Assembly: GCF_030730205.1 (NCBI RefSeq)
Contig: NZ_JANQVQ010000260.1
Span: 1-35,085, forward strand
Length of the DNA stretch: 35,085 nucleotides
Direction of reading: 5' to 3'
From: Paraglaciecola sp.
Lineage (GTDB): Bacteria > Pseudomonadota > Gammaproteobacteria > Enterobacterales > Alteromonadaceae
How positions within the stretch are numbered: position 1 is the first letter of the stretch; each line of letters begins with the position of its first letter. Positions 13,282-17,617 of the stretch are shown piece by piece. The notes beneath the pieces are model-generated. The model did no database searches, was not told the DNA's origin, and saw only the letters and a list, made by a program, of their open reading frames with translations. A program made the position numbers and the translations under genes.

Positions 13282-14814
13282 ATGACAAAACTCTGCCTGA
13301 TATTGGGCGACCAATTAAGTCTTTCTTTGGATGCCTTGCAGGCGTTAGATAAGCACAGCGATCATATCATGCTGGCAGAACTCTACACAGAAACCCACTA
13401 CGTAAAACATAACAAACTGAAAATAGCCTTACTGTTTTCGGCGATGCGCCATTTTGCCAAGCAACTACGAGACGAGGGTTTCCATGTAGACTACTACGAC
13501 TTCACCGCCACGAAAGACCACCATCAAAGTTTTACTGATGTACTCAGAGCTCAACTCAGTCAACACAGCTACCAACAAGTGATTTGCACGGAACCTGGGG
13601 AATATAGGGTACTGAACGAAATGAAACGTTGGCAACAAGAATTGGCTGTTGATGTCATCATCAAATCAGACAATCGCTTTTATTTTACTCTTGCGCAAAT
13701 GCACGATTGGTTTAGTGAACGCAAAGAGCCGCGAATGGAGCATTTTTACCAGTTTGCCAGAAAGCAGACAGGCCTGTTAATGGAAACCGGCAAGCCCATT
13801 GGCGGTCGATTTAATTTTGATAAAGAAAACCGTAACGCGTGGCAATCTGACACCCCTTTACCGCCCATGTTGAAACATGAGCAAGATGACATTACTGAGC
13901 AAGTGTTGACCTTAGTCGAACAAGAGTTTACTGACTTTCCCGGTAAACTAGTGCACTTTAATTTTGCAGTAAATCGAGAGCAAGCGCTTGCGGCCTTACG
14001 CCATTTTATCAAACACAAACTTGCAGATTTTGGCCGTTTTCAAGACGCCTTAGCAGACAATAACAACACCCTTTTTCATAGTTTACTCGCCAGCTATATT
14101 AATATTGGACTGCTGCTACCACAGGAAGTGTGTGAAGCTGCCATAGAGGCTTATCAAGCACAGAACGCACCGCTGAATGCGGTCGAAGGTTTTGTTAGGC
14201 AAATTTTAGGGTGGCGTGAATATGTACGAGGTTTGTATTGGTATGAAGGAGAGTCGTACAAAAAGCACAATGCCCTAAACGCACAAACCCCGCTACCCAA
14301 TTGGTTTTGGGATGGCAAAACCAACATGCGCTGCATGCAAAAAGCCATTGGCCACTCCTTAGATGATGCTTACGCCCACCATATTCAGCGCCTGATGATC
14401 ATCGGTAATTTTTCATTAATAGCAGGTTTGAATGTCACTGAGGTCTGTGATTGGTACCTAGCAGTCTATATCGATGCCTTTGAGTGGGTTGAACTTCCTA
14501 ATACATTGGGCATGGCGTTATATGCAGACAATGGCAAGCTAGCCAGCAAGCCTTACGCTGCCAGTGCCAATTACATCAACAAAATGGGGAATCATTGCAG
14601 CTCTTGTCGCTATAACCCCAAGTTGGTCACTGGTGTTAAAGCGTGTCCTTTTAACGCTTTGTACTGGGACTTTATTCAGCGCCACCAAGAGCGCTTTGCG
14701 AAAAATCCGCGAATGGCGCTAATGGTGAAACAGTGGCAAAAGAAAAGCAGCGCTGACCAACATGCCATCACGCAATGGGCCGCCACCTTGATAGAGAAAT
14801 TGGACAAAGCGTGA
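13282..14814 (+). CDS. FeS-BCP / (6-4) photolyase-like protein (PhrB type)
   Basis: A 510-residue deoxyribodipyrimidine photolyase-related protein of the iron-sulfur bacterial cryptochrome/photolyase group. The prototype is the Agrobacterium (6-4) photolyase PhrB. Four cysteines expected to hold a 4Fe-4S cluster are at 351, 439, 442 and 455, keeping the spacing of the prototype's known ligands. A His-His pair near the active site (residues 366-367, in YAHHIQRLM) is also kept. The N-terminus (LILGDQLS) is typical. It probably repairs UV (6-4) photoproducts with FAD and a lumazine-type antenna. It is first in a three-gene photolyase operon. No Shine-Dalgarno precedes the ATG; a 10-codon frame upstream ends on it. 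Confidence 0.9.
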   Translation: MTKLCLILGDQLSLSLDALQALDKHSDHIMLAELYTETHYVKHNKLKIALLFSAMRHFAKQLRDEGFHVDYYDFTATKDHHQSFTDVLRAQLSQHSYQQVICTEPGEYRVLNEMKRWQQELAVDVIIKSDNRFYFTLAQMHDWFSERKEPRMEHFYQFARKQTGLLMETGKPIGGRFNFDKENRNAWQSDTPLPPMLKHEQDDITEQVLTLVEQEFTDFPGKLVHFNFAVNREQALAALRHFIKHKLADFGRFQDALADNNNTLFHSLLASYINIGLLLPQEVCEAAIEAYQAQNAPLNAVEGFVRQILGWREYVRGLYWYEGESYKKHNALNAQTPLPNWFWDGKTNMRCMQKAIGHSLDDAYAHHIQRLMIIGNFSLIAGLNVTEVCDWYLAVYIDAFEWVELPNTLGMALYADNGKLASKPYAASANYINKMGNHCSSCRYNPKLVTGVKACPFNALYWDFIQRHQERFAKNPRMALMVKQWQKKSSADQHAITQWAATLIEKLDKA

Positions 14815-16346
14815 TTAATGTCGTGTGGTTAAAACGAGATTTGAGGCTCACTGACCATCAACCTTTGTGGCAAGCCGTGCAGCATGAGCTGCCCTTTGCC
14901 ATTGTTTATGTAATCGAATCCAGTTATTGGCACTTGCCTGACACCAGCGCCAGACAGTGGCAGTTTGTGCATCAAAGTCTGCTGGAACTCAAAGCTCACG
15001 CCCAACGCTTAGGTGGTGATGTATGGATAATGCTAGGAGAGGTTGAGCACTGTTTTAGCCAAATCCACCAGCGCTTTACCATCAAACATATTTTCAGCCA
15101 CCAAGAAACGGGCAATGATTGGACTTATCACAGAGACAAAAGATTTTTGCAGTGGTGCGCCGCACAGGAGATAAAATGGCAAGAATGGCCACAATTTGCG
15201 GTGAAACGAGGCAAGCTCAACCGCGATAACTGGGATAATTTGTGGCAGCAATTTATGTCGCAGCCTACCTTAGCTCTGCCTGATTTGCATCGTGCTTTGC
15301 CCCAGCCAGCGACTCAGTTTTCAAGGACTGAGTTAGCGGTAAATGAACTGCCAACAATGGTGCTCGAACCGGAAAAAATACGCTATCCGGGTAACGACAC
15401 CTTAAGTTGCATACAACCCCAACGAGCGGGCAGTTTGGCTGCAAATCGGGTGCTGAACAGTTTTATTGAAGAGCGCCACAAAGCCTACCTGATGTCAGTA
15501 TCAAGCCCCATAAAGGGCCAACAAAATAGCAGTCGCTTAAGCTGCTATCTGGCTTATGGCAACCTCAGTCTGCGTGAAGTGATCCACACCACTATTGCTG
15601 CATTGCCGACTACAAGTCACAAGCGTGCGTTAACGGCATTTAAATCACGTCTGCACTGGCATTGCCATTTTATTCAAAAAATGGAAACCGAACCGCAACT
15701 TGAAAAACACGCTTTGCACAGTAGTTTGCGTAGTTTACGGTCGGAGAGTTTTGAGCAAGCCACTTTTGATGCCTACAAAGCAGGGCTGACTGGGGTACCC
15801 TTTGTTGATGCGTGTATGCGAATGTTACAGCACTATGGCTGGATAAACTTTCGTATGCGCGCCATGTTAATTTCATTTTCTAGCTACCAGCTTTGGTTGC
15901 CTTGGCAACAACCAGCACAACATCTTGCTCAATTATTTACCGACTATGAGCCAGGCATTCATTACCCACAAATCCAGATGCAATCGGGTACTACGGGTAT
16001 CAACCCTTTTCGTATTTACAACCCCGTAAAACAAGGTGAACGTTTTGATCCTAAGGGAGAATTTATCCGGCGCTGGGTACCAGAGTTGGCGCAAATAAGT
16101 GATGCCTATATTCATCAACCTTGGCTGACCACGCAAACAAAGCGCGCTAACTATCCCGTGCCGAAACTGGAGCCCATGCAGGCGGCTCGTTTGGCCCGCA
16201 ACACCTTGTTTGAATATTATAAAAATCACGTTGAAAAAACTGAAACAGCCCGCGTTGTTCAAGTACATGCCAGTCGGGCAACTCGAAAGCGGACACCGGC
16301 TCAACGTAAACCTGCTATTAACCACAAACAAATGAGTTTATTTTGA
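14811..16346 (+). CDS. FAD-binding deoxyribodipyrimidine photolyase/cryptochrome with C-terminal clamp-type motif
   Basis: A photolyase/cryptochrome superfamily protein of about 511 residues. It has the N-terminal antenna domain (VVWLKRDLRLTDH) and a C-terminal FAD-binding domain (HWHCHFIQKMETEP, GVPFVDACMRMLQHYGWINFRMRAM, then GINPFRIYNPVKQG). It is neither the FeS nor the DASH type and probably repairs CPD lesions, though the exact substrate class is uncertain. The start chosen is GTG overlapping the upstream stop (GTGA), which begins the protein right at the conserved fold. An ATG at 14775 would overlap the previous gene by 40 bases. The last 30 residues are basic and look flexible, ending KQMSLF. 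QMSLF matches the beta-clamp binding motif, unusual for a photolyase. Confidence 0.9.
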   Translation: MINVVWLKRDLRLTDHQPLWQAVQHELPFAIVYVIESSYWHLPDTSARQWQFVHQSLLELKAHAQRLGGDVWIMLGEVEHCFSQIHQRFTIKHIFSHQETGNDWTYHRDKRFLQWCAAQEIKWQEWPQFAVKRGKLNRDNWDNLWQQFMSQPTLALPDLHRALPQPATQFSRTELAVNELPTMVLEPEKIRYPGNDTLSCIQPQRAGSLAANRVLNSFIEERHKAYLMSVSSPIKGQQNSSRLSCYLAYGNLSLREVIHTTIAALPTTSHKRALTAFKSRLHWHCHFIQKMETEPQLEKHALHSSLRSLRSESFEQATFDAYKAGLTGVPFVDACMRMLQHYGWINFRMRAMLISFSSYQLWLPWQQPAQHLAQLFTDYEPGIHYPQIQMQSGTTGINPFRIYNPVKQGERFDPKGEFIRRWVPELAQISDAYIHQPWLTTQTKRANYPVPKLEPMQAARLARNTLFEYYKNHVEKTETARVVQVHASRATRKRTPAQRKPAINHKQMSLF

Positions 16347-17617
16347 ACACTGAGATAACTACGAATTCAAGCGCTGTTGTACTGTTTCAACATAATTTGC
16401 GCCTGCATGACAATCCAGCTCTTGTTGCAGCAGCCAAACATGAAACGTTAATCTGCCTATATTGTTATGATGATTGGCAATTTGACACATCTTTTGGACT
16501 GAATCAGTGCGGGCCATTTCGAGCCGAGTTTTTGTGGCAAAGTTTGCAAGACCTGCAAGCCACTTTACAGACTTTAGGGCAGACCCTTTATATCGTAAAA
16601 GGCGAACTGTGCTCGGTTATCACGCAGATTCAGCAACAGCTCCCTGAGCTGTATCTTTATGCGCAAACGCCCAGCGACAGCAGAGAATATCAGCAGTTAA
16701 ATAGACTGTCCGCTCAAATACCTTGTCAATTATTGCCCGGCAGTACCCTACTCGCCCCAAGCGATTTGCCTTTTGCTCTTGCTGCACTACCCAAGGTATT
16801 TACCCACTTTAGAAACAAAGTAGAAAAACACTGGCCACACATTAGCCCCCTGAGTAACCCGTTAATATTACCGCCAAAACCTCACATGACACTTAACACG
16901 TTACAGAGCAGTCCATTGCCAGAAGCGTATTCATCTGAAGTAAGGCCGGCGATAAATTTTATCGGTGGCGAATCGCAAGCAAAAAAGCGACTCGAACATT
17001 ACATCTGGCAGACCAAAGCCATTTGCTCGTATAAACAAACTCGTAATCAGTTGCTCGGCGAAGACTACTCAAGCAAGTTTTCACCTTGGTTGGCGACAGG
17101 CTGTTTATCAGCAAAATACATTTATACTCAGGTTAAACTGTTCGAAGACCAGCACGGCGCAAATGACTCCACGTACTGGTTGATTTTTGAATTGTTGTGG
17201 CGCGATTATTTTGCCTTTACCGCACAGCGTGACGAAACAAACTTGGGCGTTGCTGAAACGTCAGCGCAGCCCCTACAGCCTCATCAACAGCAGACATTCA
17301 ACAGTTGGTGCATCGGCCGAACAGGTAATCGCTTTATTGACGCAAACATGCGTGAGTTGTTACTGACTGGTTTTATGAGCAACCGAGGAAGGCAAAATGT
17401 GGCTTCCTATTTAATTAATGAGCTCAATATTGATTGGCGTTTTGGCGCTGCTTGGTTTGAACAACAGCTTATCGATTTTGATTTCGCCAGCAACGTAGGC
17501 AATTGGCAGTACATTGCAGGCATAAAATCTCCGAATGGTCCTAGACATTTCAATGTGGTCTCGCAAGCAGAACGCTATGATGCCCAGGGTGAGTTTTGTC
17601 GTCATTGGTTGGATTAG
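16343..17617 (+). CDS. Cryptochrome DASH family protein
   Basis: A 424-residue DASH-type cryptochrome, a flavoprotein of a class known to repair CPDs in single-stranded or looped DNA and proposed to signal light. Hallmarks seen are VVLFQHNLRLHDNPAL at the N-terminus, YKQTRNQLLGEDYSSKFSPWLATGCLS, FELLWRDYF, GFMSNRGRQNVASYL and DFDFASNVGNWQYIAG. The start is TTG overlapping the stop of the preceding gene (TTGA), so translation is probably coupled. It ends soon after the YDAQGEFCRHWL block, so the C-terminus is short and has none of the long extensions seen in some DASH proteins. It is third in the photolyase operon. No clear terminator follows. Confidence 0.92.
   Translation: MNTEITTNSSAVVLFQHNLRLHDNPALVAAAKHETLICLYCYDDWQFDTSFGLNQCGPFRAEFLWQSLQDLQATLQTLGQTLYIVKGELCSVITQIQQQLPELYLYAQTPSDSREYQQLNRLSAQIPCQLLPGSTLLAPSDLPFALAALPKVFTHFRNKVEKHWPHISPLSNPLILPPKPHMTLNTLQSSPLPEAYSSEVRPAINFIGGESQAKKRLEHYIWQTKAICSYKQTRNQLLGEDYSSKFSPWLATGCLSAKYIYTQVKLFEDQHGANDSTYWLIFELLWRDYFAFTAQRDETNLGVAETSAQPLQPHQQQTFNSWCIGRTGNRFIDANMRELLLTGFMSNRGRQNVASYLINELNIDWRFGAAWFEQQLIDFDFASNVGNWQYIAGIKSPNGPRHFNVVSQAERYDAQGEFCRHWLD

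Follow-up and report, generated by a model that had tools for sequence, protein, structure and literature searches.

The middle one of three overlapping photolyase-family genes in a 35,085-nucleotide stretch of Paraglaciecola sp. DNA (contig NZ_JANQVQ010000260.1, analysed whole and referred to below as the window) encodes a protein whose C-terminus, QMSLF, belongs to a motif kept across a large clade of relatives, and we consider this motif, on comparative grounds, to be probably a working binding site for the DNA sliding clamp DnaN (a probability of roughly 0.85). Somewhat less firmly, we favour the view that the protein is a clamp-tethered, photolyase-family flavoprotein that would bring light-dependent repair to clamp-marked DNA. 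This reading is drawn from four observations: the motif itself, the fact that the clade has kept it, the preceding linker and the peptide pocket of the host DnaN protein.

All three genes lie on the forward strand. The upstream gene (13282..14814) is of the DPRP or FeS-BCP type, scoring 240 bits against a cut-off of 22.1 for PF04244, and the downstream gene (16343..17617) is a DASH-type cryptochrome/photolyase with 452.8 bits against a cut-off of 317 for TIGR02765. The middle gene, encoding a photolyase/cryptochrome-family flavoprotein with a putative clamp-binding tail, occupies 14811..16346. Its open frame begins with an ATG at 14775, but the GTG at 14811, giving a product of 511 amino acids, is the more likely start. 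This GTG overlaps the upstream stop codon, a TGA; a homologue (P0001) begins with MINLVW at the matching position. Residue numbers below nevertheless count from the ATG. At its other end the gene closes with NHKQMSLF and a TGA stop (motif plus stop, 16329–16346), and the TTG start of the DASH-type gene lies inside this stop, overlapping it at 16343–16346. From these end-to-start overlaps we presume an operon in which the translation of the three genes is coupled. A scan for LexA boxes in connection with SOS control gave nine matches with at most one mismatch against 12.5 expected, none of them just upstream of 13282, and matches in a promoter and terminator scan were no more numerous than in shuffled sequence. 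Similar neighbours occur elsewhere: among 70 named loci of the motif clade, taken from the best 80 of at least 582 confirmed, 16 have an FeS-BCP-type gene within approximately 4 kb and ten have a DASH-like or related match nearby, some of them weak, so that clustering of photolyase-family genes recurs. In two Thalassospira loci (L078 and L084) the FeS-BCP-type neighbour itself ends in EQGSLF, possibly a weak clamp motif on a second type of photolyase.

The middle protein matches PF00875 and PF03441 above their cut-offs, the latter as an FAD-binding domain at residues 290–474 (15642..16196, forward strand), and together with the photolyase fold of its AlphaFold model these matches assign it to the cryptochrome/photolyase family. 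It reaches no NCBIfam cut-off, falling short of that for the class I CPD photolyases of the E. coli PhrB type (157.5 against 506 bits) and of the DASH cut-off TIGR02765 (143.6 against 317 bits). The nearest solved structures among the Foldseek matches listed were photolyases and cryptochromes at 17–24% identity; the class III structure 4u63 came first, at 23% identity, and was level with other classes in a second comparison. The sequence-only reading had treated the protein as an established photolyase, a description that the active site does not support; a profile alignment with E. coli PhrB shows six positions replaced: E274, N341, M345, N378, W382 and W384, which we take to be lesion- or flavin-side active-site residues, correspond to R292, F359, A363, H396, I400 and M402 respectively. 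Retained in the same alignment are PhrB W277, W359, D372 and the SRLS loop. Two alignments, of 81 and 79 rows with or without the motif, show no variation at R292, F359, H396 and M402, and the family as a whole has, as far as alignments can tell, an unusual and distinctive photolyase-family active site. As most of the PhrB residues that handle the lesion are replaced, the word photolyase denotes homology only and light-driven repair is not assured; the middle protein may act on a different lesion, reverse CPDs by another route or sense light.

The C-terminal motif QMSLF (residues 519–523; 16329..16343, forward strand) is followed directly by the TGA, as the sequence-only reading had noted, although the pattern proved broader than was claimed there, extending to a clade of 101 members. 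A basic, apparently unfolded tail had also been proposed, and both properties are borne out. The linker between the HASR element and the motif (residues 498–518; 16266..16328, forward strand) is rich in basic residues, and in an AlphaFold model made with 79 family members (mean pLDDT 92.5) residues 499–523 are coil with neither helix nor strand, blocks within 501–523 having pLDDT values of 65–76. Measured from the HxSR element, the linker of 87 motif-bearing clade members has a mean length of 22 residues, with 30% lysine or arginine and 6% hydrophobic residues, and its sequence is scrambled between homologues. Eight close homologues, 47–56% identical to the window protein, end in QLSLF (twice), QMRLF, QLDLF, QLNLF, QLKLF, QLGLF and QFSLF, so that Gln-519 and Leu-522 are invariant in all nine rows and the preceding tail varies, just as had been anticipated for a Qx(S/D)LF ending. 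The sequence-only interpretation stands in part. QMSLF does have the clamp-binding form Q-φ-x-[LM]-(x)-[FL]; its methionine lies outside the Leu, Ile, Val or Ala allowed at position 2 in the consensus quoted in the available part of PMC13254535, and within the range seen in the clade.

Relatives were collected from genomes of the same genus (22), order (394) and family (395), and also from plasmid records and named genome contigs. The loci retained from the genome searches were those most similar to the window protein, and the named loci, the best 80 of at least 582 confirmed, were found with a query built from motif-bearing proteins alone, so the proportions given below are not natural frequencies. 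The counts exclude L002–L004 and L016, which are other members of the family, repeats or a broken copy; L155, which is DnaN; three rows identical to others; and L088, L128, L138 and L140, which are cut. This leaves 143 distinct full-length relatives. A quick-search tree built from these without their tails separated a group of 101 members with an SH-aLRT value of 99, and for the reasons of sampling just given the split of 101 to 42 is not a natural ratio. The named loci of this clade comprise 29 from Alpha-, 28 from Gamma- and eight from Betaproteobacteria, four from Cyanobacteria and one from a Chloroflexota assembly, again among the best 80 of at least 582, and the clade appears to be a widespread and apparently uncharacterized set of photolyase/cryptochrome-family flavoproteins.

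The motif was counted in the last 30 residues in three ways: by the published consensus, by that consensus with methionine also allowed at position 2, and by an extended form, broader than the published one, which adds methionine or phenylalanine at position 2, phenylalanine at position 4 and tryptophan at the end. The extended form was counted beside the strict ones because the Pol II and Pol IV proteins of the host match it alone. These measures found the motif in 59, 65 and 87 of the 101 clade members respectively, and by each of them in a single one (L015) of the 42 rows outside the clade. Of the 14 clade members without the extended form, ten keep a weaker Q-x-x-[L/W] and four have nothing similar. 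A very loose labelling pattern, which was not used for counts, matched 96 of the 101 clade members and also produced three false matches in 41 sister rows. In the subclade to which the window protein belongs, the motif is present in 14 of 14 rows.

Several controls indicate how far these counts exceed background. With the tails of all 143 rows shuffled 500 times, the published-plus-methionine form, observed 66 times, had a mean of 0.77 and a maximum of 4, and the extended form, observed 88 times, a mean of 1.12 and a maximum of 8. When the clade was reduced to 54 representatives below 65% core identity, 44 carried the extended form within their final 30 residues, whereas 1000 shuffles of these tails gave 0.47 on average and never more than 3. 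Outside the clade one of 23 representatives chosen at the same identity had it, and among 848 stretches of 30 residues from the interior of the same proteins there were 13. Among other open reading frames of at least 150 amino acids in the named loci (best 80 of at least 582), the published-plus-methionine form stood near the end in one of 433. Thirty same-genus loci with a PF03441 match, among which the window copy is not included, yielded no motif; they include ten sister-clade copies and one class-I-like copy of the host, and one of them (L164) was scored on a neighbouring FeS-BCP-type frame. In 313 pairs of clade members at 60–97% core identity, which are not independent of each other, the motif was present in both partners in 275, in one in 34 and in neither in four. 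In 291 pairs of motif-bearing rows, likewise not independent, 81% of linker codons differ in the amino acid encoded and the codon of the motif glutamine differs silently in 129; that this glutamine never changes among them follows by construction, the rows having been chosen for the motif.

Relatives without the motif form a separate sister clade, approximately 40% identical, with members from Vibrio, the same genus and other relatives, and none was found in the subclade of the window protein, as the sequence-only reading would require. Ten of the 12 other same-genus relatives fall in this sister clade, which implies that the family can function without the tail; the remaining two are L016, which is broken, and L015 (also L190; G008:C1:592557-594131), a divergent protein 33% identical to the window protein that ends in QLKLF. 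L015 sits on a long branch between both clades in the tree and was considered as an independent gain; a search of 390 family genomes for its close kin at an E value of 1e-110 returned only itself. A same-genus relative at G014:C1:4846855-4848251 is split over two frames and looks broken. When the tree was rooted with other photolyases, the motif clade needed two changes (one in 59% of bootstrap trees), with outgroup rows that are long-branched, two of them with lengths near 8 and probably in the wrong frame, and that lie on no single side of any branch. Phage copies (eight records, 24–31% identical) were judged to lie outside the motif clade by identity alone.

The clamp of the host is encoded in the same genome (L155:766-1869) and aligns with the E. 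coli β protein over its whole length. Ten β residues that the available part of PMC3716654 assigns to the peptide site or its surroundings, namely Arg-152, Gly-174, His-175, Leu-177, Pro-242, Arg-246, Val-247, Val-360, Met-362 and Pro-363, are all identical in the host protein when the alignment is read by eye, and the peptide pocket of the host DnaN is, by this comparison, intact. Other candidate partners in the genome carry motifs of the same kind: Pol II ends in QFDLF plus three residues, Pol IV in QLTFDF plus six, both missed by the strict patterns, and a UmuC-like frame contains QVDLF (these names rest on Pfam matches and inference). A third IMS-family frame of the host genome (L188) gave no strict motif match. 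For comparison, the known motifs given in the accessible parts of PMC3716654 and PMC13254535 are QLGLF in Pol II, QLNLF in UmuC, QVELEF in Pol III and QVEMEF in RecB.

Other explanations of the conserved C-terminus fare less well. It is very improbable that the motif arose by chance or merely follows from the way the gene overlaps the next start: stop and start do overlap in the window at 16343–16346, but in Pseudoalteromonas sp. THAF3, where the protein ends in QLGLF, the next annotated gene starts 200 bases further on, and shuffled tails and neighbouring frames in the named loci (best 80 of at least 582) yield almost no motifs. On the THAF3 spacing and the shuffles we reject the overlap as the cause of conservation. 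The C-terminus might instead be conserved for another purpose, as a degradation tag, a contact with some other protein or part of the fold, its likeness to a clamp motif being incidental. This we regard as unlikely. Such a role would suit the motifs that are exactly terminal (40 of 87), but in 20 of the 87 the motif lies 4–14 residues inside the end, which makes a pure C-terminal tag less likely; the pattern Q-hydrophobic-x-L-(x)-F moreover fits the clamp consensus as quoted in the part of PMC13254535 available, and the end of the protein is coil in the model.

A different use of the same docking site deserves rather more weight, though it too is doubtful. The protein could be a light-gated regulator of the clamp, cryptochrome-like and bound to DnaN by its tail. 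Illumination or contact with a lesion would uncover or mask this tail, so that translesion polymerases and other partners gain or lose their place on the clamp. The replacement of the equivalents of PhrB Glu-274, Asn-341, Met-345, Asn-378, Trp-382 and Trp-384, with Arg-292, Phe-359, His-396 and Met-402 invariant, would suit such a role, and host Pol II and Pol IV, having the same kind of motif, would compete for the clamp. Against it, the photolyase-family neighbours in the window and the FeS-BCP-type gene near 16 of the 70 named clade loci (from the best 80 of at least 582) suggest repair, and no regulatory domain was seen. We also entertain, as a speculative proposal with odds well below even, that the clade as a whole, made up of light-absorbing flavoproteins from three classes of Proteobacteria and from Cyanobacteria, works permanently with the replication clamp and has a non-canonical active site, light both acting on lesions at the fork and shifting which translesion polymerase or repair protein occupies the clamp.

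In the clamp-tethered reading that we prefer, a photolyase fold would be joined by a basic, flexible linker of approximately 20 residues to a motif of the QLSLF or QLSLDL type that docks in the DnaN peptide pocket. Binding to DnaN would concentrate the enzyme at replication forks and on the clamps left behind them, and the linker would allow the catalytic domain to search the surrounding DNA. The flavoprotein would then act in the light at forks, gaps or newly replicated DNA, where UV lesions might be reversed. Photolyases are usually described as finding their lesions unaided. If the binding is true, light-driven repair would be physically coupled to DNA replication. Sister-clade members of the same genus, which lack the motif, are a natural control. 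We found no report of a clamp-bound photolyase among the titles and abstract openings listed from the open-access literature, most subscription papers being outside the scope of that search, and the partner table of a clamp review, in the portion available, names no photolyase. The fold and the docking motif are thus each familiar, and the literature searched yielded no record of the two together.

Set beside known systems, the window protein differs from the class I CPD photolyase of E. coli (PhrB, 1dnp) at the six active-site positions given above, and with the class III CPD photolyase PhrA of Agrobacterium (4u63) it was compared at 23% identity; the tails of class I/III CPD photolyases lack the motif in so far as the same-genus PF03441 loci (0 of 30) represent them. 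The sister clade shares the fold family and the unusual active site of the motif clade, but its tail stops shortly after an HV/HT element, without the clamp motif. Overlapping photolyase-family genes are likewise known from Synechococcus sp. PCC 7335, in which two such genes form one transcript that is induced by UV-B (PMC9649867, consulted in part); there are two genes there against three in the window, and the part of that paper available makes no mention of a clamp. With the β-clamp-binding proteins Pol II, UmuC, Pol III and RecB, as described in the accessible parts of the sources, the window protein shares the same motif, mostly C-terminal and on a flexible stretch; those known binders are polymerases, a nuclease-helicase and mismatch-repair proteins, whereas here a photolyase fold carries the motif and the binding is predicted.
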